NCBI GenBank assembly: GCA_002238965.1
Contig: MPNJ01000025.1
Span: 1-52,339, forward strand
DNA length: 52,339 nucleotides
Reading direction: 5' to 3'
Origin: Nitrospinae bacterium bin107
GTDB lineage: Bacteria; UBA8248
A model generated the notes under the pieces. The model had not been told where the DNA came from, made no database searches, and was given only the letters and a program-made list of their open reading frames with translations. Below are positions 17,453 through 52,262 of the stretch, piece by piece. How positions within the stretch are numbered: the stretch's first letter is position 1; the number at the start of each line of letters is the position of its first letter. The position numbers and the translations under genes were made by a program.

Positions 17453-19393
17453 TTACGGCGTTCGTTTGGCGCCGAAGGCGCCGATGATGCTCTGGAGGTT
17501 GTCCGCCGTGTTGGCCCCGAAGGCGCCCGCCACCGAACTGGGATGATCGTCCGAATTGGCGCGGTTTCCGAAGAACTTACCCCCCCACTTGCCCGAGAGC
17601 GCGTCGCCATCGCCCGTCACGCCGCTGGTGTCGCCATCGAAGTTCCCCCCCAGGGCGCTGCCGGTGATGTCCGCAGAATCCAGGGTCAACGCAGGCAGGG
17701 ACACGCCTCCATCCGTCCTGCCCTCCGTGATCGTCCCCGAGACGGTTCCCAGCGCGGTCGCGTCCCCAAAATCGACACTCAGATTCGCTCGCGCGTCGAA
17801 ATAGTCGAATACGGGGTCCGCGTTCGTATCCGCCTTCATCATGTGCAGGCCGGTCGCTGGCCCCCTGTAGCTTGCCGCGCCCGTCAGCCCGGCGAGGTTG
17901 TCGTTATCAAAAGGATCGTTCCCGCCGGCCGCAACGCCCAGGGCGTAGGAGCCGGTGAAACTCTCGTCTTCGGGGTCCTTGTAGATGTACAGCCACGAAC
18001 CCAGCGAGAGATAGTCCGCATCCGAATTGCCCTGGCTGTCGGAGTAGGCGTCCCAGTTGAAAATGCCGTTCGTCGCATCCTTATGGGTCTCGACTCCCTT
18101 CCAGCCCGACGCCAGATCGTCCACCCTTCTCGACGATACGTCCTGATCCGTCGTACTCAAGGTCGAGACGGTGGATCCGGTTTTGCGCTTGAAGGTGAAC
18201 TGCAGGACTCCGTCCGCGTCACGCTCGGCGAGGAAGTACGACGGGTCCGAGGCGCGACCGCCGGAGAGAGAGGATGATTGCGTCGTGCTGCTCATCTCCT
18301 CCGAGGCGGGCGTATACCCCAGAGGCCGCGCGCCCCCGGCCCTCAGGATGCGCACCGTGGCGCCCCTCGCCAGGGTCGGATTCTCATTGACTTCCTTCAG
18401 CAAGGATCCGTAGCGAACCGGGGAAGGTGTACGTTTTGCCCCGAAGGCACCGATGATGCTCTGGAGGCCGTCCGCCGCGTTAGCTCCGAAGGTGCCCGCC
18501 ACTGAGCCGGGATGACCCGTCGAACTGGCACGGTTTCCGAAGAACTTCCCGCCCCACTTGCCCGAGAGAGTGACGCCGTCAACCGTCTCCCCGCTGGTAT
18601 CGCCATCGAAGTTCCCCCCAAGGACCGCACCGGTAATGTCGGCGGAACCCAGGGTCAACGCGGGCAGGGACACCCCTCCATCCGTACTGCCCCCCGTAAT
18701 CGACCCCGAGAGGGTTCCCAGTGCAGTCGCATCCCCAAAATCGACCGCCAGATCCGCTCGCGCGTCGAAGTAATCGAATGCGGGATCCGCGTCTGCATCC
18801 GTCTTCATCATGTACAGACCGGTCGCGGGCCCGCTGTAGGTCGCCGCGCCCGTAAGTCCGGCGAGATTCTCGTTCTCGAAGGGATCGTTGCCACCTGCGG
18901 CGACGCCCAGATCGTACGATCCGGTGAAGCTGCCGTCTTCGGGGTCCTTGTAGATGAACAGCCACGTACCCAGCGAGAGATAGTCCGCGTCCGCATTGCC
19001 CTGGCTGTCGGCGTAGGCGTCCCAGTTGAAAATGCCGTTCGTCGCATCCTTGTGGGTCTCGACACCACTCCAGCCCGACGCCAGATCGTCCACCCTTCTC
19101 GACGATACGTCCGGATCCGTCGTGCTCAGGGTCGAGACTGTGGAACCGGTTTTGCGTTTGAAGGTGAACTGCACGTCCCCGTTCGCGTCACGCTCGGCGA
19201 GGAAGTACGAGGGGTCCGAGACGCGAGCGCCGGAGAGAGAGGATGATTGCGTCGTGCTACTCATCTTCGGGACTGGATCGGCGGAGAGGTAAGACGTGAT
19301 GAAAATGTAGGACGATTGCGTCGTGCTGCTCGTCTTCGAGGCGCGACCGCCGGAGAGGTAAGACGATTGCGTCGTGCTGCTCGTCTCCTCCGA
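17453..19393. repeat. Tandem duplication with a constant 969-bp offset
   Basis: Matching landmarks in the two domains are exactly 969 bp apart: GATGATGCTCTGGAG at 17483 and 18452, and CCAGCCCGAC at 18101 and 19070. The unit is 323 codons, so the frame is kept. High identity, including many third positions, points to a recent duplication or ongoing gene conversion. The upstream copy has an extra linker with reiterated SSTTQSS. Confidence 0.9.
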
Positions 19394-20422
19394 CGTGGTC
19401 GTGGGCGTTGACCCCAGAGGCCGCGCGCCCCCCGCCCTCTTGATGTTCCCCGCAACGCCCTTCGCCAGCGCCGGGTTTGCCTTGACTTCCTTCAACAAGA
19501 ACCCTTTGCGAACCGATGATACCAAATTGCTGATTCTGCCATCATCATCGTCATCATCGTCATCATTGTCGTTATCGTCGTCATCGCCGTCATTATCATC
19601 ATCGTCATCGTCACTGTCTGGCGTGCTGGTGGACGAAGTGGACGAACTGCTTCCATCATCGTCGTCATCATCGCTGTCGTTGTCATCGTTGTCGTCGTCA
19701 TCATCGTCACTATCTTGCGTGCTGGTGGGCGAAGTAGACGAACTGCTTCCATCATCGTCGTCGTCATCGCTGTCGTTGTCATCATTGTCGTCGTCGCCGT
19801 CATCGTCGCCGTCTTGCGTGCTGGTGGACGAAGTAGACGAACTGCTTCCATCATCGTCGTCGTCATCGCTGTCGTTGTCATCATTGTCGTCGTCATCATC
19901 GTCACTATCTTGCGTGCTGGTGGACGAAGTAGACGAACTGCTTCCATCATCGTCGTCATCATCGCTGTCGTTGTCGTCGTCGTCATCGTCACTGTCTTGC
20001 GTGCTGGTGGACGTGGTGCTTTGCTGACTGATGGGCGTGGTGCTTTCCTTGTTGGTAGTTGTGACTATAGACCTGTTTTCATCGTCGTCATCGTCATCGC
20101 TGTCGTTGTCACTGTTGTCGTCATCATCGCTGTCGTTGTCACCGTCGTCATCGTCACCATCATCGTCGTCATCGTCATCCGACATGGCCTGAACTCCAAA
20201 AGCAACGATGATACTTTGGAGACTATCCTTTGTACTGGTCTCTCTTTTGGCGCTGAAGATACCTGTTATCGGACCCGGATGGTCGGTGGAATGGATGCTG
20301 CTGGAAAACTCGTCTCCCCATTTACCAGCGAACGCGACGTCTTTGTCCATTACGCCGAAAGCCAAGACGAAGAAAAATAATATGGCCAAAAGTGAAATTT
20401 CAGAGAGAATTGTTCTTGCCAT
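17453..20422 (-). CDS. Asp/Ser-repeat surface protein with two tandem TbpB-like domains
   Basis: A 989-residue secreted protein. The ATG at 20422 follows GGAG at 8 bp and starts a signal peptide ending near AFA (30-32). Residues 32-78 are a degenerate copy of the barrel-closing motif (GKWG, HPG, LQSII, AFG). Residues 81-294 are almost pure Asp/Asn/Ser/Thr in five imperfect units. Two TbpB-like domains follow, ending at 666 and 989 in GAFGAKRTP, each with the strands ATYSGPATGL or equivalent, a DARADLAVDFGD-like strand and GKWGGKFFGNR. The domains are nearly identical at DNA level. Unlike the 10.9 kb homologue it has no lipobox. Likely surface display and calcium binding; ligand unknown. Confidence 0.72.
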   Translation of the reverse strand: MARTILSEISLLAILFFFVLAFGVMDKDVAFAGKWGDEFSSSIHSTDHPGPITGIFSAKRETSTKDSLQSIIVAFGVQAMSDDDDDDDGDDDDGDNDSDDDDNSDNDSDDDDDDENRSIVTTTNKESTTPISQQSTTSTSTQDSDDDDDDNDSDDDDDDGSSSSTSSTSTQDSDDDDDDNDDNDSDDDDDDGSSSSTSSTSTQDGDDDGDDDNDDNDSDDDDDDGSSSSTSPTSTQDSDDDDDDNDDNDSDDDDDDGSSSSTSSTSTPDSDDDDDDNDGDDDDNDNDDDDDDDDGRISNLVSSVRKGFLLKEVKANPALAKGVAGNIKRAGGARPLGSTPTTTSEETSSTTQSSYLSGGRASKTSSTTQSSYIFITSYLSADPVPKMSSTTQSSSLSGARVSDPSYFLAERDANGDVQFTFKRKTGSTVSTLSTTDPDVSSRRVDDLASGWSGVETHKDATNGIFNWDAYADSQGNADADYLSLGTWLFIYKDPEDGSFTGSYDLGVAAGGNDPFENENLAGLTGAATYSGPATGLYMMKTDADADPAFDYFDARADLAVDFGDATALGTLSGSITGGSTDGGVSLPALTLGSADITGAVLGGNFDGDTSGETVDGVTLSGKWGGKFFGNRASSTGHPGSVAGTFGANAADGLQSIIGAFGAKRTPSPVRYGSLLKEVNENPTLARGATVRILRAGGARPLGYTPASEEMSSTTQSSSLSGGRASDPSYFLAERDADGVLQFTFKRKTGSTVSTLSTTDQDVSSRRVDDLASGWKGVETHKDATNGIFNWDAYSDSQGNSDADYLSLGSWLYIYKDPEDESFTGSYALGVAAGGNDPFDNDNLAGLTGAASYRGPATGLHMMKADTNADPVFDYFDARANLSVDFGDATALGTVSGTITEGRTDGGVSLPALTLDSADITGSALGGNFDGDTSGVTGDGDALSGKWGGKFFGNRANSDDHPSSVAGAFGANTADNLQSIIGAFGAKRTP
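19541..20182. repeat. Asp-rich coding repeat region
   Basis: About 640 bp of GAC/GAT-rich repeats, on the plus strand seen as ATCGTC and CATCATC strings, encode five units of the form TSTQDS-D6-N-D-S-D6-G-SSSS. Units differ by insertion of 3-12 bp in the acidic core, always in frame. The region is prone to slippage and hence to length variation. Confidence 0.88.
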
Positions 20423-21176
20423 TGGTTTTGCTCCGCGCATCGTGATCAACCAGGACCGGATGAATCAACCGGGATTCTGATGAAGCCGCTCCGAAAACCG
20501 CGCCGACATTCATCTCGGTCGTCTGCCTGGGCGCCGTCGCCCAAAGAGAGCGGAACGGGCACGGCTCTATCCGGCAGGCACAGCGTGGATGCGATTTGAA
20601 CGCGAATCATCGTGGTCATTCCCCTATTTGGATTTTGCTATCTTCATCCTAGGGGCCGACCTGCGATGCAGGCCATATGTTGTTGGTTATAAATTCCTTG
20701 TATTTATACCAACGCTATATACGGTTTCGGTCCGATTTACGGAGAATCCGGGTTCGGGCCGGACGAGTGGGCTGAATCGGAAAAGGCGGCGCTTTCCAAG
20801 GAAGCCGGGTGTTCATGCATGAACCGGAGCGATTCGCGCCCTATTCGAGCGGGGGAATTTCCGAAAAATTCGATAAATTCAAATAAAATTAGATAAATTC
20901 ACGAGGTATTTCGATAAATTAATTACTCCCTGCGGTGGCGCAACTCCCCCGCCGCCGGAAACAATCGTGAGGATACAAGGCTCAGGCGGCTGTCGCGCTA
21001 CGGCAAATGCGGGCATCTGCGGGGAAATGCAACAGGCGTATTATGGGGGAATATGCGTGAGAATCGCACCCATTAGGGGTTATGGCAGGGATTTCACCTC
21101 ACAAGCCGGGATATAGACTGTCGATTTTCCGATTTTCCAGGGATTCAGATGGTTTTGATGGGGCAGGAGTGGAAAA
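20423..21176. other. AT-rich gene-free stretch at the composition boundary
   Basis: Between the surface-protein gene and the 3' end of tkt I find no credible gene. There is a TGGGCG/CGCCCA hairpin near 20528-20543 in the leader of the surface-protein gene, three GATAAATT motifs at about 20870-20920, and AT-rich tracts. This is where composition changes from GC-rich to AT-richer DNA. Confidence 0.5.
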
Positions 21177-44752: not shown

Positions 44753-45800
44753 ATGAAACAGGTCCATATCATCGGCATCGACTTGGCGAAACACGGATTT
44801 CAACTCCACGGCGCGCGCCCGGACGGGTCGGTCGCGTTCCGCAAGAAGCTGACGCGGGGGAAGGTGTTGGGTTTTCTGGAATCGCAGCCTCAGTGCCGGG
44901 TTGCGATGGAGGCATGCGGGAGCGCGCACTACTGGGGCCGCGAGATCGGCGAACTCGGCCATGAGGTGAAGATCATGCCACCGCGATATGTGAAGGCGTT
45001 CGTCAAACGTCAGAAAAACGATGCCGCGGATGCGGAGGCGATCTGCGAGGCGGCTTCCCGTCCCACAATGCGCTTCGTGGCCGTGAAGACAGAAGAGCAG
45101 CAGGCCCGGGGGATGCTGTACCGCACGCGCGACTTGCTGGTTCGCCAGCGGACCCAGACGGTCAACGCCTTGCGCGGGCACCTGGCGGAGTTCGGCGTCA
45201 TCGCCCCCAAGGGTACCGCTCACGTCACGCGGCTTGCGTCCGCCGTTGCGGACCCGGACTCGGGGCTGCCGGAGACGGTCCGCGAACTGGGCGGGCTTCT
45301 GCTCGCGCAGCTCGCCAGCCTGAACAGGAAAGTCGGGGAACTGGAAAGCCGGATCCGCTCCGGCGCTTACGAGGACGAGGAGGCGAGACGGCTGATGAGT
45401 ATCCCGGGAATCGGGCCGATCTGCGCGTCGGCGATACTGGCCTTCGCGCCGCCGATGGAGAGCTTCCGGAGCGGGCGGGACTTCTCCGCCTGGCTCGGCC
45501 TCGTGCCCCGGCAAAACTCTACGGGCGGCAAGGAGCGACTGGGCAGGATATCGAAGATGGGCCAGCGCGACGTGAGGCGGCTGTTGATCATAGGCGCGAT
45601 GACGGTGGTGCGCTGGGCGGACCGGCGCGGCGCGCCACCGGGCTCCTGGCTCGCGCGGATGCTTGCGCGCAAGCCGAGGATGCTCGTCGCGGTGGCGCTG
45701 GCCAACAGGATGGCGCGCATCGCCTGGGCGTTGATGACGAACAGGGAATTCTACAGGGAGCCTGCGCCGGTCATCTGAGCGGCAGGCGAGCGAATATAGC
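44705..45800 (+). mobile_element. IS110-family insertion sequence (ends not resolved)
   Basis: The transposase gene marks the element. IS110-family elements lack terminal inverted repeats and target duplications, so ends cannot be read off the sequence; coordinates given are only the gene with short flanks. The family makes a bridge RNA from the non-coding end; the 232 bp before the gene or the region after it are candidates. Confidence 0.55.
44753..45778 (+). CDS. IS110 family transposase
   Basis: A 341-residue DEDD/Ser recombinase. The N-terminal RuvC-like domain shows IIGIDLAKHGFQ (Asp at 10), VAMEACGSAHYW with the Glu, and KNDAADAEAI with the paired Asp. The C-terminal Tnp_20 domain has IPGIGPICASAILA and the catalytic-Ser region RQNSTGGKERLGRISKMG. 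Length and both domains are complete, so the enzyme may be active. GGAGGAG precedes the ATG. Confidence 0.93.
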   Translation: MKQVHIIGIDLAKHGFQLHGARPDGSVAFRKKLTRGKVLGFLESQPQCRVAMEACGSAHYWGREIGELGHEVKIMPPRYVKAFVKRQKNDAADAEAICEAASRPTMRFVAVKTEEQQARGMLYRTRDLLVRQRTQTVNALRGHLAEFGVIAPKGTAHVTRLASAVADPDSGLPETVRELGGLLLAQLASLNRKVGELESRIRSGAYEDEEARRLMSIPGIGPICASAILAFAPPMESFRSGRDFSAWLGLVPRQNSTGGKERLGRISKMGQRDVRRLLIIGAMTVVRWADRRGAPPGSWLARMLARKPRMLVAVALANRMARIAWALMTNREFYREPAPVI

Positions 45801-46851
45801 CGGGAGGAATGCAAGCAGGTCGGAGGATAACGTAGGGGCAAACGGTCATTGAGACGGGATCGGGAAAACCAGGGACTGAACGCAGAGCTTTCAAGCTCGC
45901 GTATCCGATATGGACCCGGTCCTCGCATCTCCATACGGGCCCGCGGCATGTGAAACGCCGCAATTGAGAGGCCGGATACACGAATGCGCCTGACCACTTT
46001 GCGCCGAACTATCCAAGACCATGCTTGCAATCCTGGGCGCGTCCATACAAGTTCATCCAAGCCGTGATGAAGTGGGCTTCACCATGGACCGCAAGTGCTT
46101 GGATATTTTGCTGAATTAGATGGTGCCGAAAGCATTAGCGCTGACTAGTTAAGTACGAACTGACTTCGAACTACCACTGCTGGGGTATTGCTATCACGGC
46201 CTAAGTGAACGTTTACGTATGCGCCGGCGGGAATGGCTTGCTACTCCCCGCCGGGCCCGGGCATGCCGAATCCCGGTGCGCCGTAGCGCGTCCTTCCTGG
46301 CTCCCGATTGAGCGGGGAAGCGGCGGCGAGCGGTGACACACCGACTGGAATGTTCCGGTTTACGCGGGAGTTATAACTCGCCCGCTACCGTCTTGATTAT
46401 ATATTGCAGCAAGAAATCCTGAGCGAAATTCAAAACATTGAATAGCACCGATGGTTTCAACAAACTACAAGGATTTCACGGTCGCTGCCCGCCCTCTCTA
46501 AACGGAAGGTAAAGCCCGAAAACTTCGGTTCGAAATTACCTGCTCATCGCCCGGAATCGAACCCGCCGCCCCGCCCGGGGCTTCTTGAACTACCGCTTCG
46601 GGTGCGCCTGCTTGTCTTTTCCCTTCATCCATCCTGTCTCCCGGAATGTAAAATTACGGTAAAAAAAAACGCATGAATACACGATAAGGATATCAATGCA
46701 GGCAATATGTATACTTGAAAGACAGACTGCATTGGTACAATGGAACATGCATTCAACGCGTGAATCCGGGTTGCAAGAGGAAGCGGCGGGCCGGGCGGGC
46801 GAATCGCCCTTGGGCTGTCCGGCCGCCGGAAAACAAGGGGGAGGAAGCTGA
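45779..46851. other. Gene-free stretch with GC hairpin before the RTX/TbpB-like gene
   Basis: Between the transposase and the surface-protein locus no gene is apparent. CCGGCGGG (46224-46231) pairs with CCCGCCGG (46247-46254) around a 15-base loop; no T-run follows. A promoter for the surface gene lies at 46715-46741. The rest shows nothing recognisable. Confidence 0.5.
46715..46741 (+). promoter_or_regulatory. Candidate extended -10 promoter upstream of the RTX/TbpB-like gene
   Basis: TTGAAA (46715-46720), 15 bp, then TACAAT (46736-46741) preceded by TGG, giving an extended -10. This would start transcription about 100 nt before the GTG at 46852 and run through the heptamer repeats. Confidence 0.45.
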
Positions 46852-47157
46852 GTGAAGACATCGGCAAGAGCAATTTCATTTTCGGCGGAGAAAGTCTTCG
46901 ACCGTTTGACATCGCGGCCGGACTCGGTTTATAGTCTTCCGCACTCCGCACTCCGCACTCCGCACTCCGCACTCCGCACTCCGCACTCCGCACTCCGCAC
47001 TCCGCACTCCGCACTCCGCACTCCGCACTCCTTTGCCTGTGCACTGCCCTGCTGTCGGCCGCGCTCTGCATGCCCGCGGCAATGGCGGATGAGCCAGGGG
47101 ACACACCGAAGGAACAGTACAAGGAACAGCACGGCACGAACGGCGCCGACAACCTGA
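46852..47157 (+). CDS. Leader frame running into heptamer repeats (off-phase)
   Basis: The GTG at 46852 has GGAGG 7 bp upstream and opens a frame of 28 codons before the heptamer array. In the array it reads SALRTPH over and over. It leaves in a frame that gives CALPCCRPRSACPRQW and stops at 47157. In the frame one base away, the same DNA encodes a good signal-peptide core and the long RTX/TbpB-like product. I read this as the off-phase version of that gene's 5' end. The only other upstream starts are closed by stops (TAG at 46932 in the main frame). Confidence 0.5.
   Translation: MKTSARAISFSAEKVFDRLTSRPDSVYSLPHSALRTPHSALRTPHSALRTPHSALRTPHSFACALPCCRPRSACPRQWRMSQGTHRRNSTRNSTARTAPTT
46939..47029. 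repeat. Thirteen perfect CCGCACT heptamers
   Basis: The 91-bp array is 13 uninterrupted copies. Each copy changes the frame by one base modulo 3. Adding one unit, or removing two, would join the GTG at 46852 to the 47070-48926 frame. It is a simple-sequence repeat suited to slipped-strand phase variation. Confidence 0.95.
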
Positions 47158-48926
47158 GAGGCGGCAGCGGCGCCGACCTGATCTTCGGCCTGAGGGGCAA
47201 CGACAAGCTGCTCGGCAAGGACGGCAACGACGAGCTTCGCGGCGGGCGCGGCAACGATCTGTTGCGCGGCGGGGCCGGCGATGACGTACTTCGCGGGGGA
47301 CGCGGCAACGATGTGCTCCGCGGCGGCGCCGGCGACGACCTCTTGCGCGGCGGGGCCGGCAAGGACCGCTTCGCGTTTGCGCTCGGGAACCGCGGCCACA
47401 AGATCATCGCCGACTTCGAGACCGGCGACACGGTCGCGCTCGGCGTGGACCCGGAGGGCTCCTGGCCCGCGCTTGCCGATATCGTGGCCGGCGCGGTGGC
47501 GCGGGACGGCCGCTACACCTATACCCTGCGTCCCGGCCTGACGGTGGAGACGAACACGCCGCTGGGGGTCGAGGACTTCATGTTCCTGGGCGACACGGCG
47601 CTCGATACGCTCCACGTCGTGGCGCTGCCCGACAGCCATTATTTGGATAGCTGGCTCGCCGACAATCCGGGCGGGACGGTGACCGTGTCCGCGGGCGCGC
47701 ATGACGACGTGGGCGGCGTGCGCTTTTCCTGCCCGGCGGGCGGCGACGATTGCACGTTGACCGTGACGAGCGAGGATGGGTCCGTCACGGTCTCCTCGAG
47801 CGGAGGCGCGGCCACGGCCGGACCCGAGCCGGCGGCTACCGCCAGGCTGGCCGGCACGCCGCCGCCCGCGCCGCCGACGCAAACGGCGCCCACGACCCTG
47901 GCGGGCGCCACGGCGCACGGGATCGCCGGCGCCATCGTCAGCCTCAGAGACGATGCGCTCACGGATCCCTTCGTCAGCTGGCCGGTCGCGGACCGTCCGC
48001 TCACCCTCGGGGTCCCGTACCACGTATTGCCGCTCTCCCTGCACAAGCTGAGCAAGGGCGTCCTGGGCGGGGAACTCGACAACGACGGCAATCCCTCGAC
48101 CCCCACCGGGTTCGCCGCCGCCGCCGCCCCTCCGGCGATATCCGGATGGACGGGAAGCGCGCAGGAGTGGAGCCGCACGAACGGCGCCGGGGTCACGATC
48201 ACCGACACCGTGGCCCTCTACGCCAAGGCGGGCTCCGGGGACTCTTATATCTCCTTCGGGTGGTGGACGCGGGTTCCCGGCTCCACCTCCACCGGCGCCG
48301 GGACGTTCGGGAACGACCCGACCCACCACAGCATCCACAAGACCCAGAGGAATCCCGTGTCGCTCAACGCCGCGTGGCCGCGGGGCGCCAACGCCTTCGC
48401 CGCGGGCCGGCACCATTACTGGCCCGGCGGCTTCACGCAGCTCGACGCCTTCGACGGCGCCGCGACCTATACCGGCGCCGCCGCCGGCCTGTGGTCTAAG
48501 CGCGCGAGCGGCGCGCGAGACGGCGCCTCCGGCGCGTTCACGGCGGACGCCACCCTGACGGCGGACTTCGACGCGAAGTATGTCCGCCTCTCGGGGAACA
48601 TCGCCAACTTCCGGGACGCTTCCGGCGCCTCGCTCGGCAACTGGACGGCGAGTCTCGCCAACGAGACCGGCGGGCTGACCGGGGGCGGTTTCAACGGCGC
48701 CGGTTTCGCGATGAGCGGCAACACCGCCGGCGCCGCCGACGGGCGCGAGTGGAGCGGCGGATGGGTCGCCCAGTTCTTCCGCCGCGCGGCAACCGATTCC
48801 CAGTCGGCGCAACCCACCGCGGTGGGCGGGGTGTTCCAGGCGCACCACGGCACGCCGGCGATGGCGGCGTCGGACGACGCGGGCTTCGTCGGCGTGGTCG
48901 GCGCCTTCGGGGCCGGGAAGCAGTAG
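47070..48926 (+). CDS. RTX-repeat and TbpB-like surface protein
   Basis: The open frame reaches back to 46935 (after TAG) through the heptamers and encodes LLCLCTALLSAALCMPAAMA, a signal-peptide core ending just after the ATG at 47070. The mature part has six or more RTX-type nonapeptides (GGRGNDLLRGGAGDDVL type, about 25-105) that bind calcium. A middle beta-rich region follows. The C-terminal TbpB-like barrel (about 430-618) has ATYTGAAAGLW, ADFDAKYVRLSGNIANF, GGVFQAHHG and GAFGAGKQ at the end. The true initiator is probably the GTG at 46852 when in phase. Its barrel is homologous to the 10.9 and 17.5 kb proteins. Confidence 0.75.
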   Translation: MPAAMADEPGDTPKEQYKEQHGTNGADNLRGGSGADLIFGLRGNDKLLGKDGNDELRGGRGNDLLRGGAGDDVLRGGRGNDVLRGGAGDDLLRGGAGKDRFAFALGNRGHKIIADFETGDTVALGVDPEGSWPALADIVAGAVARDGRYTYTLRPGLTVETNTPLGVEDFMFLGDTALDTLHVVALPDSHYLDSWLADNPGGTVTVSAGAHDDVGGVRFSCPAGGDDCTLTVTSEDGSVTVSSSGGAATAGPEPAATARLAGTPPPAPPTQTAPTTLAGATAHGIAGAIVSLRDDALTDPFVSWPVADRPLTLGVPYHVLPLSLHKLSKGVLGGELDNDGNPSTPTGFAAAAAPPAISGWTGSAQEWSRTNGAGVTITDTVALYAKAGSGDSYISFGWWTRVPGSTSTGAGTFGNDPTHHSIHKTQRNPVSLNAAWPRGANAFAAGRHHYWPGGFTQLDAFDGAATYTGAAAGLWSKRASGARDGASGAFTADATLTADFDAKYVRLSGNIANFRDASGASLGNWTASLANETGGLTGGGFNGAGFAMSGNTAGAADGREWSGGWVAQFFRRAATDSQSAQPTAVGGVFQAHHGTPAMAASDDAGFVGVVGAFGAGKQ

Positions 48927-49443: not shown

Positions 49444-51003
49444 TCACCACCTCCTCGAGCCGCGCAGGAGGACGCCGCCGCCCGGCTTTTCGGCGCCCGT
49501 CTCGGTGAGGCTCGCCTCGAGGTTCACCTCCCAGGCGGGACCGAGCTTCCAGCGCGCGCCCGCGCGCCAGGTCTCCGCACTCTCCGCCAGCGAGACCCCC
49601 GCGTAGGGCGTGAGGAGCCCGCGCCGGGCGTCCACCCCGTAGCTCACCTCGGCGTCGAGGCGCGCTTCGGTGTCCGCGTTTCCGCCCGTGAGGCCCGCCG
49701 CCTGCGACCAGAGTCGCTCCGCCCCGCCCGAGGCCGTCCCCCAGGCCGAGCCCGCGCGCATCGAGAGCCCGCGCCCGTCCGCCCGGGGGGCGTAGCGGAC
49801 GGAGGCGCTCGCCCCCCACTCCCCGTATTCCGAATCCGCGTGCGCGAGGAGCGTCCGCGCCTTCATCTCGATGGAAAGACCCTGGGACTCATACGCCACC
49901 CCGCCGCCGAGTTCGAGGCCCGCGCCCCGCTCCGCGTCGCCTCCGTCGTAGCGCACGCCCAGCTCCACCGAGGGCCTGAGCGCCACGGAGTCCGGGAACG
50001 CGAAGCGCCGCCCGCCTTCCAGCACGAGGCGGACCCTGCTCGCGTCCGCCTCGGTCTCGACCGAGTTCGCCGCCTTATCCGAGTCCATGCGCACGAAGAA
50101 CGCATCCGCCCTGAGCGCCAGGTCCATGCCGCCCGACGCGTCCTGCGTCAGAATCGCGCCGCGCGCGCCCAGCGCGCCCATCTGCAGGCCGATATCGGTC
50201 TTCGTGACCATCTCCGTCCGCGCGGGCAGCGTCTCCGTCGCCTCGCGCGCCTCCTGTACGACCGTCATGTCGCCCGCCCCGAAGCCCACGAGGCCCCAGG
50301 CCGAGAGCCGCCCGGTGAGCTTGACGCGGGCATAGGGGCTCACCGTCGTCAGCCTGCTCTCGATACTGCCCTTGTCCACGTCCGTCTGCGCGAAGGTCCC
50401 CTCGCCCTCGCTCAACGACACCGCCACGCCCGCGAGCAACCGGTCCCACTCCGCGTCCGCACCTAGCACCCCCGTCACGACCTCGCCGTCCACGCTTATG
50501 GGCCCTTTGTCATTCGCCTGGGCGCCCTCGAAGCTCCCGTGCGCCACACGGCCCCAGGCCGCGAGAGCGGCGCCCGGACCCGGGCCCCCGGCCTTGCCCT
50601 TGCGGGCCACCTGGAACGAGCTGCCGAGCAGGAGCTCGCGCCCCGTCATGCCGCGCGGGGATGACGAGGCGGGTTCGCTCCAGACACCGCCGAGGCCGTG
50701 GCGCGCGAAGGGGTCGCCCTCCGCCGCAGGCTCCTCGCGCGCGCCCCACGCCCGCCCCAGCCCCCCCGGGGCCGGGCGCGCGGGAGGGGCCCCCCCCCCG
50801 CCGCAGGCCCCCCGCGCGCGCCGACCGCCCGCGCGAGCCCCGCCATGACGTCGGCCAACGCCTGCTCCTCGTCCATGCGCGAGAGGTCCACGCCCTGGCC
50901 CGCCAGCGTCGCGTGCGCCCCCGGCGCAATACCCGAGTCGAGTCTTTCGGAGACCGCGTCGCTCACCTGGCTCCCCACCGTGCGCCCGAACCGCGACAGC
51001 CAC
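49444..51003 (-). CDS. Autotransporter beta-barrel part (3' portion of split gene)
   Basis: The reliable part runs from about 50740 to 49444 and begins EEPAAEGDPFARHGLGGVW; the residues upstream in this frame (51003 to about 50800) are out-of-frame shadow of the Calx-beta part. The barrel begins near MTGRELLLGSSF and ends in a Trp-terminated strand, LLRGSRRW, as outer-membrane barrels do. Motifs WGRVAHGSFEG, TVSPYARVKLTGRLSAWGLVGFG and ELGVRYDGGDAE are typical of this autotransporter family. It belongs to the same gene as the 50646-52262 frame; the join is broken at a degraded duplication. Confidence 0.8.
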   Translation of the reverse strand: MAVAVRAHGGEPGERRGLRKTRLGYCAGGARDAGGPGRGPLAHGRGAGVGRRHGGARAGGRRARGACGGGGAPPARPAPGGLGRAWGAREEPAAEGDPFARHGLGGVWSEPASSSPRGMTGRELLLGSSFQVARKGKAGGPGPGAALAAWGRVAHGSFEGAQANDKGPISVDGEVVTGVLGADAEWDRLLAGVAVSLSEGEGTFAQTDVDKGSIESRLTTVSPYARVKLTGRLSAWGLVGFGAGDMTVVQEAREATETLPARTEMVTKTDIGLQMGALGARGAILTQDASGGMDLALRADAFFVRMDSDKAANSVETEADASRVRLVLEGGRRFAFPDSVALRPSVELGVRYDGGDAERGAGLELGGGVAYESQGLSIEMKARTLLAHADSEYGEWGASASVRYAPRADGRGLSMRAGSAWGTASGGAERLWSQAAGLTGGNADTEARLDAEVSYGVDARRGLLTPYAGVSLAESAETWRAGARWKLGPAWEVNLEASLTETGAEKPGGGVLLRGSRRW

Positions 51004-52262
51004 ATGGTCTGCAAATGGTCGTCGTTCCGGATGAGGCCCTGCGTCTCGCGGTCTCCCGCCGCCAGCGTCGCCCCGTCCGGGTTCGAGAACCGCAGCAGGA
51101 AGTACTCCGTCCCCTCGTCGATCGCGTCGTCGATGATCGGCACCGACACTGTGTGGACCGTCTGGCCCGGGAAGAACAGCAGCGTGCCCGAGACCGCGGT
51201 GTAGTCAGCGCCCGCCGTGGCCGGCTGTGTCCGCGCCCACGACCCGGCGCCGTCCGACGTCTCGTAGTCCACGAACACCGTCTCCGCGGACGCGCGGTCG
51301 AGGCGCACCGTGAACACGACCGCATCGTCGCTCCCCTCCCGGGCGATGCTCCGCCTGGTCACGATCGCGGGCACGGACACGTCGTCGTCGGCGACCGCCA
51401 CCGTGGCGCTCGCCGAAGCGCCCAGGGTGTAGCCGCTGCCCGTCCCGAGCGCCGCCGTCACCGACCCGTCGGGCTCGTCAACGCCGTCGTCCACCGTCGC
51501 CACCGGGAAGAGCGCCGCCGTGCTGCCGGCGGCAATCGTCACCGTGCGCGCGCCGAGCGCGGAGGTTTGTGCGAACGCGCCGCTCTGGGTGACCGTCACC
51601 GTCACCGCGAGGTCCGCCGCCGGCGCGGGTTCCGCCGTCAGCGTGAAGCCCGCGGGCGCGCCTTCCGTCACCCCCGCTCCCCCGCCGGCAATCGAGATCA
51701 CGGGCACGGGCTCGTCGTTGTCCGCGACCGCCACCGTGGCGCTCGCCCCGGCGCCCAGGGTGTAGCCGCCGCCCGTCCCGAGCGTCGCCGTCACCGACCC
51801 GTCGGGCTCATCCTCCGCGTCGTCCACCGTCGCCACCGGGAAGACCGCCGCCGTGCTGCCGGCGGCGATCGTCACCGTGCGTCCGCCGAGCGCGGAAGCC
51901 TCCGCGAACGCGCCGCTCTGGGCGACCGCCACCGTCACCGCGATATCCCGCGCCGGCGCCGGCTGCGCCGTCAGCGTGAAGCCCGCGGGCGCGCCCTCGG
52001 TCACGCCACCGCCGGCGGCGATGGTCACCACCGGGGTCTGCACCGCCGTGGGCTGCGCGCCGCCCTCGATCTGCTTCAGCGCCTTCGCGACCTCCACCCA
52101 GCGCGTGCCCCAGGGCTGGTCGGCGAACGCCTGCGCCTCCGCCGCCGTCATCGCCGTGAGCGATGTGTCGGACACCGTCTCGCCGAACGCCTTGAGCGCC
52201 CGGTCCCAGCGGGAGTTACTGTCAGATGTTGTGTATGAGCTAAATTGAAAAAGGCGGCGCAC
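50646..52262 (-). CDS. Calx-beta passenger of the autotransporter (5' portion, 5' end displaced)
   Basis: The reliable part is about 52220 to 50830. After AFGETVSDTSLTAMTAAEAQAF, three Calx-beta-like domains follow: two near-identical units with GVTEGAPAGFTLTA, SALG.RTVTIAAGSTAA and DEPDGSVTA, and a third with FVDYETSDGAGSW and DDAIDEGTEYFLLRF. The linker DEEQALADVMAGLARAVGAR normally leads into the barrel. The C-terminal residues after it in this frame are out-of-frame. The first ten to fifteen residues derive from adjacent element DNA, so the native signal peptide is missing. Confidence 0.75.
   Translation of the reverse strand: MRRLFQFSSYTTSDSNSRWDRALKAFGETVSDTSLTAMTAAEAQAFADQPWGTRWVEVAKALKQIEGGAQPTAVQTPVVTIAAGGGVTEGAPAGFTLTAQPAPARDIAVTVAVAQSGAFAEASALGGRTVTIAAGSTAAVFPVATVDDAEDEPDGSVTATLGTGGGYTLGAGASATVAVADNDEPVPVISIAGGGAGVTEGAPAGFTLTAEPAPAADLAVTVTVTQSGAFAQTSALGARTVTIAAGSTAALFPVATVDDGVDEPDGSVTAALGTGSGYTLGASASATVAVADDDVSVPAIVTRRSIAREGSDDAVVFTVRLDRASAETVFVDYETSDGAGSWARTQPATAGADYTAVSGTLLFFPGQTVHTVSVPIIDDAIDEGTEYFLLRFSNPDGATLAAGDRETQGLIRNDDHLQTMWLSRFGRTVGSQVSDAVSERLDSGIAPGAHATLAGQGVDLSRMDEEQALADVMAGLARAVGARGGPAAGGGPLPRARPRGGWGGRGARARSLRRRATPSRATASAVSGANPPRHPRAA
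50716..50845. repeat. Imperfect 77-bp duplication with G/C-biased differences
   Basis: Landmark CCGCCGCAGGC occurs at 50721-50731 and 50798-50808, 77 bp apart. Aligned, the two copies differ mostly where one has A or T and the other G or C, giving a C10 run at 50790-50799 and a C7 run at 50761-50767. Removing 77 bp would restore one frame across the autotransporter (2742 bp from 52262 to 49444, 914 codons). Confidence 0.8.

Follow-up and report, generated by a model that had tools for sequence, protein, structure and literature searches.

In Neisseria, the CTTCT repeats of the opa genes encode part of the signal peptide. They form a genic tract in a phase-variable family of surface proteins, as listed in PMC5953494, and in this they resemble the locus described here; they differ in being pentamers with one unit across paralogues, whereas the genome studied here carries a separate heptamer at each locus. 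Heptamers that act through the reading frame are established for neuO of E. coli K1 (prophage CUS-3), where 5'-AAGACTC heptanucleotide repeats are described in the 5' coding region and slippage turns translation on or off according to copy number modulo 3 (PMC8653822). The array considered here is placed alike and would follow the same arithmetic, but neuO encodes a capsule O-acetyltransferase with demonstrated switching, whereas our array precedes a signal-peptide-like segment and its switching is predicted. Neisserial pglE, with 5-34 copies of CAAACAC, is listed among known phase-variable genes (PMC5953494); it is likewise a genic heptamer tract, but in a pilin glycosylation gene, with another unit and in another lineage.

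Promoter-acting heptamers are established for hmw1A of H. influenzae (PMC8262952), and hepta-, octa- or nonanucleotide tracts are reported upstream of hmw loci in different strains (PMC2651432, PMC8262952). The likeness of hmw1A/hmw2A, which encode large surface adhesins, to our locus lies in the heptamer array on their 5' side (PMC2651432, PMC8262952), and their repeat units are reported to differ among strains (PMC2651432) as units differ among the three loci described below; unlike in our proposal, more repeats are described as lowering the transcript level in hmw, and frame is not the switch. Bacterial heptamer repeats also include the GGGAATC-type repeats of Xanthomonas and Nostoc (PMC4692102) and the TAACTGA repeats of Beggiatoaceae (PMC4679880), but these are reported as many per genome and largely intergenic. 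Those of Xanthomonas and Nostoc are spread over gene classes, and phase variation was judged unlikely by the authors of that report (PMC4692102). Our literature searches found neither the CCGCACT repeat nor its peptide, and a search for heptanucleotide tandem repeats together with a signal peptide and a phase-variable gene returned hmw1A only. Heptamer phase variation is thus already known (neuO, pglE, hmw), and the added interest of the present case is that three different units occupy equivalent places in one genome.

The CCGCACT array and the gene behind it

We analysed a 52,339-nt stretch (the window) of the draft genome of Nitrospinae bacterium bin107, which comprises 4.37 Mb in 60 contigs. 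Towards its right end lie, in order, an IS110 transposase gene (44753-45778), an apparently non-coding stretch, a heptamer array and a 618-aa RTX ORF. The features of this region are as follows.

46613 to 46840, + strand: upstream module, apparently non-coding, common to the window and locus C28 of the same genome (75% identical; blastn E 8e-37)
46715 to 46741, + strand: distal promoter candidate, TTGAAA-N15-TACAAT, read by eye; the C28 counterpart is TTGAAA-N17-TAGAAT
46840 to 46844, + strand: Shine-Dalgarno-like GGAGG, 7 bp 5' of GTG46852, from the sequence
46852 to 47157, + strand: leader ORF of 101 aa with a GTG start, crossing the array, from ORF reading; its start aligns with an ATG at C28
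46906 to 46935, + strand: proximal promoter-like TTGACA-N18-TATAGT with 11/12 matches, 2-3 bp 5' of the array, from a sigma70-like scan
46939 to 47029, + strand: heptamer array of 13 perfect CCGCACT units, from the sequence
47028 to 47087, + strand: signal-peptide-like hydrophobic core with a cleavage-like site between AMA and DE, in the surface-gene frame, judged from composition
47070 to 48926, + strand: surface-protein ORF, 618 aa from ATG47070, with RTX nonapeptide repeats (PF00353) and then a C-terminal domain (domain match)

The maximal perfect lag-7 stretch at the array spans 46938-47031, i.e., 13.4 units or 94 bp. Lag-7 identity runs reach 87 in the window, as against at most 10 in 30 dinucleotide-preserving shuffles, and a chance origin of the array was therefore set aside. 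No stop codon closes any of the six frames of the array, and its + strand holds no start codon. We dropped the lack of stop and start codons in the sense-strand units as evidence of function, since it is true of half of all heptamers.

The leader frame, entered at GTG46852, runs through the array and ends at a TGA at 47155-47157; with the 13 copies of the assembly it does not match the frame of the surface gene. Between 46852 and the array, TTG46906 is the only other ATG, GTG or TTG in this frame. The surface-gene frame has a TAG at 46932 and then no ATG, GTG or TTG until ATG47070, which lies behind most of the core; at 13 copies, therefore, none of these codons starts an exported form. The distance from 46852 to 47070 is 218, which leaves a remainder of 2 on division by 3, and GTG46852 would thus be in frame at 14 or 11 copies. 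All four of these elements (the 13 perfect units, the GTG with GGAGG 7 bp upstream, the leader in another frame from the core and RTX ORF with its stop at 47157, and the return to frame at 14 or 11 copies) had been proposed in the initial annotation, and our counts agree with it. The locus thus has the build of a translational phase-variable gene mediated by simple sequence repeats: a perfect array whose unit is not a multiple of 3 lies between the presumed start (GTG46852) and the body of the ORF, which is open at full length when the copy number n is 2 mod 3 and stops at 47157 when n is 13.

Directly 3' of the array, the core reads LLCLCTALLSAALCMPAAMA followed by DE, in the frame of the RTX ORF. 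The protein had been described as RTX/TbpB-like; the RTX repeats were recovered with PF00353 (E 2e-21), while the libraries used gave no support for a TbpB-like protein. Its C-terminal ~160 aa match a domain of which another window ORF has two copies (E 2e-11 and 4e-10) and, more weakly, a congener protein (E 5e-6). With its signal-peptide-like segment and RTX repeats, the product may be surface-exposed. No full-length ortholog was found in the 40 other genomes searched, four of which gave matches, mostly to the RTX repeats.

On the minus strand of the window at 17453-20449, the C-terminal domain of the RTX protein occurs twice in a 998-aa ORF that also has long Asp/Ser repeats. Also on the minus strand, at 49444-52262, a Calx-beta ORF overlaps, in a different frame, an ORF with a weak match to an autotransporter barrel (TIGR01414, E 0.0022), and the overlap falls at a 77-bp duplication rich in G/C tracts (tract C10 at 50790). 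Perhaps a frameshift has cut a single surface gene here; the arrangement may also be a second variable locus or result from misassembly.

Upstream of the leader, the module at 46613-46840 has one strong match in the genome, C28:19041-19275 (75% over 237 columns), and nothing comparable was found in six congeners, where the best hit was a 27-base match (E 0.0016). The distal promoter candidate lies within it, and its spacing of 15 is outside the rule of the promoter scan, which therefore did not list it. We also considered the IS110 transposase gene as a cause of the array and rejected it: matches of its region elsewhere reach ~46070 and stop before the array, which gives no link between the two. 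Several unrelated genes of the genome (C4, C10, C27, C33 and C57) have on their 5' side an AT-rich element around TACACGATAA, perhaps a common promoter type of the lineage.

Heptamer arrays elsewhere in the genome and its family

To survey the whole genome, we used the patterns (CANNNNN)x5CA and (ACNNNNN)x5AC with zero mismatches on both strands, which together cover 14,196 of the 16,380 heptamers (87%; those with CA or AC on either strand) at ~5.3 or more copies. This census recovered the arrays of the window, C28 and C11 only, besides one extra match (at C4) that was non-repetitive. A period scan (perfect repeats of period 4-12, with at least 3 copies and 22 bp) of the first 20 kb or less of contigs plus the window, in all 934 kb or ~21% of the 4.37 Mb, gave three heptamer arrays, one 9-mer and no other. 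The units differ: CCGCACT x13 in the window, CCGTCAA x18 at C28 and, on the coding strand, CATCCAG x5.9 at C11, with perfect lengths of 94, 127 and 41 bp, respectively. Each array lies just 5' of the signal-peptide-like segment of a large protein. That the arrays are perfect while the flanks of the window and C28 have diverged by 25% is expected of tracts rewritten by slippage.

At C28, an ATG aligned with the GTG of the window opens a leader, followed by the CCGTCAA array, a signal-peptide-like segment and then Calx-beta and cadherin-like domains; at the assembled 18 copies the terminal TGA of the leader overlaps the surface-frame ATG (ATGA). The n-region of this signal peptide holds poly-C tracts of 11, 11 and 14 within ~60 bp (L181 2064-2122), adjoining the heptamer array. 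These tracts are potential further slippage sites; the sample has no surplus of poly-C/G tracts of at least 9 (11 against an expected 14.6), though three of them fall in this signal-peptide region.

The C11 array was found by an array scan made without reference to the upstream module. There, a purine-rich stretch precedes an ATG from which a leader runs in another frame; the CATCCAG array, a signal peptide and cadherin-like domains follow. The signal peptides of C11 and C28 are homologous (E 6e-9 pairwise, 3e-7 in the sample). A model of the upstream region built from all three loci (R1) had given C11 an E of 1e-23 and was discarded as circular, and a model built from the window and C28 alone (R2) did not recover C11 over the 934 kb at E up to 10. 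C11 is therefore tied to C28 by its signal peptide and not by its upstream region, which matches one at C33, a locus without an array. Similarity from leader start to array was equalled by 3 of 500 shuffles for the window and C28, 26 of 500 for C28 and C11, and 102 of 500 for the window and C11. None of the 18 loci with weaker R1 matches carries a heptamer array.

With the copy numbers of the assembly, none of the three leaders is in frame with its surface ORF, an outcome with a chance probability of 30%. At C11 and C28 an ATG and an n-region belonging to the surface gene lie between the array and the hydrophobic core, and a purine-rich stretch separates array and ATG; the window lacks both the ATG and the n-region. 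The frame of the leader need not be decisive at C11 and C28, therefore, and the three loci do not share one logic.

The family sample consisted of 18 genomes, i.e., everything returned at phylum level. Beyond the genome itself, the CA pattern identified a GCCTCAA array in the congener G001, a 14-bp array in G012 and a non-repetitive match in G006, and gave nothing in the other 14 genomes. Since it revealed heptamer arrays in 2 of the 18 genomes, the system is not general in the family. The GCCTCAA array stands at the ends of two contigs and is possibly one locus; one of the ends lies ~130 bp 5' of an ORF whose N-terminus, read by eye and not by library, resembles a Tat or lipoprotein signal. 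The AC pattern was run on all 18 genomes as a control and read for five; in G008 it added a 14-bp repeat with imperfections and a non-repetitive match, and in G017 a further non-repetitive match. The 14-bp repeats belong to another genus of the family: CATGAAGCAAAGGC in ~6.7 perfect copies at the end of a stretch (G012:C85:5567-5652), and the imperfect repeat of G008 (G008:C268:2240-2283).

A probable translational switch and its alternatives

We consider the array to be probably a contingency (phase-variation) tract that works as a slipped-strand translational switch. Ribosomes would enter from GTG46852 and read on through the array, and replication slippage would add or remove 7-bp units, each shifting the leader frame by one base. 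When n is 2 mod 3 (11, 14, ...), the leader would join the signal-peptide core in frame and the RTX surface protein would be made and exported; at any other n, including the assembled 13, the protein would be off, with translation ending at 47157 when n is 1 mod 3 and otherwise earlier. Slippage switching of this kind had been suggested in the initial annotation, whose anatomy and frame arithmetic held. The module and aligned start accompanying another heptamer at C28, and the third array at C11, add support beyond that annotation; with copy number read from one assembly of the species, its variation stays a prediction. Observations on the side of the switch are the array, its frames, the lack of an ATG, GTG or TTG for the signal peptide at 13 copies, and recurrence at two other signal-peptide genes, although both of these have their own post-array ATG, so that the recurrence is supporting rather than strictly defining. 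Indeed, the three arrays are alike in position and period, unlike in unit, and perfect despite the diverged flanks of the window and C28, which argues for phase variation. The switch would further entail that GTG46852 is used, that copy number varies, that the gene is expressed with its product at the surface, and that a long peptide from leader and array is tolerated as n-region; at ~60 residues, such an n-region is unusual for a Sec signal peptide and speaks against the fused leader.

The array might instead be the 5' UTR of a transcript from the adjoining TTGACA-N18-TATAGT, with copy number tuning transcription or translation by length and not by frame. The initial annotation had placed a promoter candidate upstream; one such candidate, TTGAAA-N15-TACAAT, has a counterpart at C28, but the better, 11/12 match adjoins the array and would exclude the GTG leader, since transcripts from it as main promoter would start inside the array and bypass GTG46852. 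None of 200,000 random positions of the genome reached a score of 11 under the same rule, the match ends 2-3 bp before the array, and hmw1A offers a precedent with 7-bp repeats (as described in PMC8262952). The arrays of C11 and C28, just ahead of a surface-gene ATG with a purine-rich stretch between, would also suit a role in the UTR. However, with looser spacing (15-19) the window holds three sites of at least 11/12 on both strands, so the proximal match is not unique, and the corresponding sites of C28 and C11 score no better than ordinary, at 7/12 and 6/12, which 10% and 33% of random positions reach, respectively. Moreover, an hmw-type locus would have its array between the promoter and the start of the gene, outside the coding frame; here a promoter-like site adjoins the array, but no ATG, GTG or TTG follows in the frame of the core between array and core, and a transcript initiated in the array could not give the exported protein from such a start. 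We regard a UTR of variable length as rather unlikely in the window. At C28 and C11 the array could owe its effect to UTR length or to the position of the leader's stop relative to the surface ATG.

The missing start could also mean that neutral expansion of the repeat removed the gene's own start codon and n-region, leaving a recent pseudogene and a functionless array. The ATG and n-region kept between array and core at C11 and C28, but absent in the window, agree with such a loss, and CCGCACT is also found in many genomes that are unrelated, in at least 115 stretches, which shows that arrays of this kind need no role in switching to arise. Yet the 618-aa ORF is intact, the leader start aligned with that of C28 is retained, and all three arrays detected in the genome occupy like positions, and we judge decay of the gene to be unlikely. 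An assembly artefact, either a wrong copy number or a chimeric join at the array, is very improbable: the genome is a draft in 60 contigs and a heptamer array terminates two contigs in G001, but the 94-bp array is internal to a 52-kb contig, the match of the upstream region to C28 extends as far as the start codon, and the array would remain even if the count were wrong.

Returning to the translational switch, a wider proposal can be made tentatively: the locus-specific arrays with their different units may form a shared contingency system placed before the signal peptides of large exported adhesin-like proteins, in a lineage that, judging from its draft assemblies, appears to be uncultured. 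At C28 and C11 the leader could then be in any of three states: fused with the surface protein, ended at the ATGA overlap (as at C28 with 18 copies) or running past the surface start. That equivalent places in a single genome hold different heptamers suggests that what has been kept is repetition as such and not the sequence of the repeat, and comparison would then be a way to test how heptamer contingency tracts originate. Should copy number vary, the genome would encode a system of surface variation in an uncultured lineage, readable directly from metagenomic long reads.

Distribution of the CCGCACT repeat

CCGCACT x4 occurred in 2 of 386 genomes, including the one studied here (1 of 386 for a reversed-sequence control), and in three viral contigs. 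Among named genomes it was present in at least 115 stretches from unrelated genomes. The unit is therefore not specific to the lineage and is uninformative on function. Copy numbers and flanks were read for L042-L132 (92 rows, in which one array can appear in overlapping views), covering 80 of the 115 stretches. We discarded a crude classification of 118 CCGCACT arrays by longest ORF, which had put 80 inside ORFs: with no stop in any of the six frames, the array lets ORFs run on through it. Many phyla carry arrays of 4-17 copies (L053-L132), often beside CCGAACT or CCGCATT variants. In an Akkermansia MAG (L067, array at a contig end) and a Verrucomicrobiota MAG (L096), the arrays have a common flank by eye and comprise 17 and 4 perfect copies, respectively.
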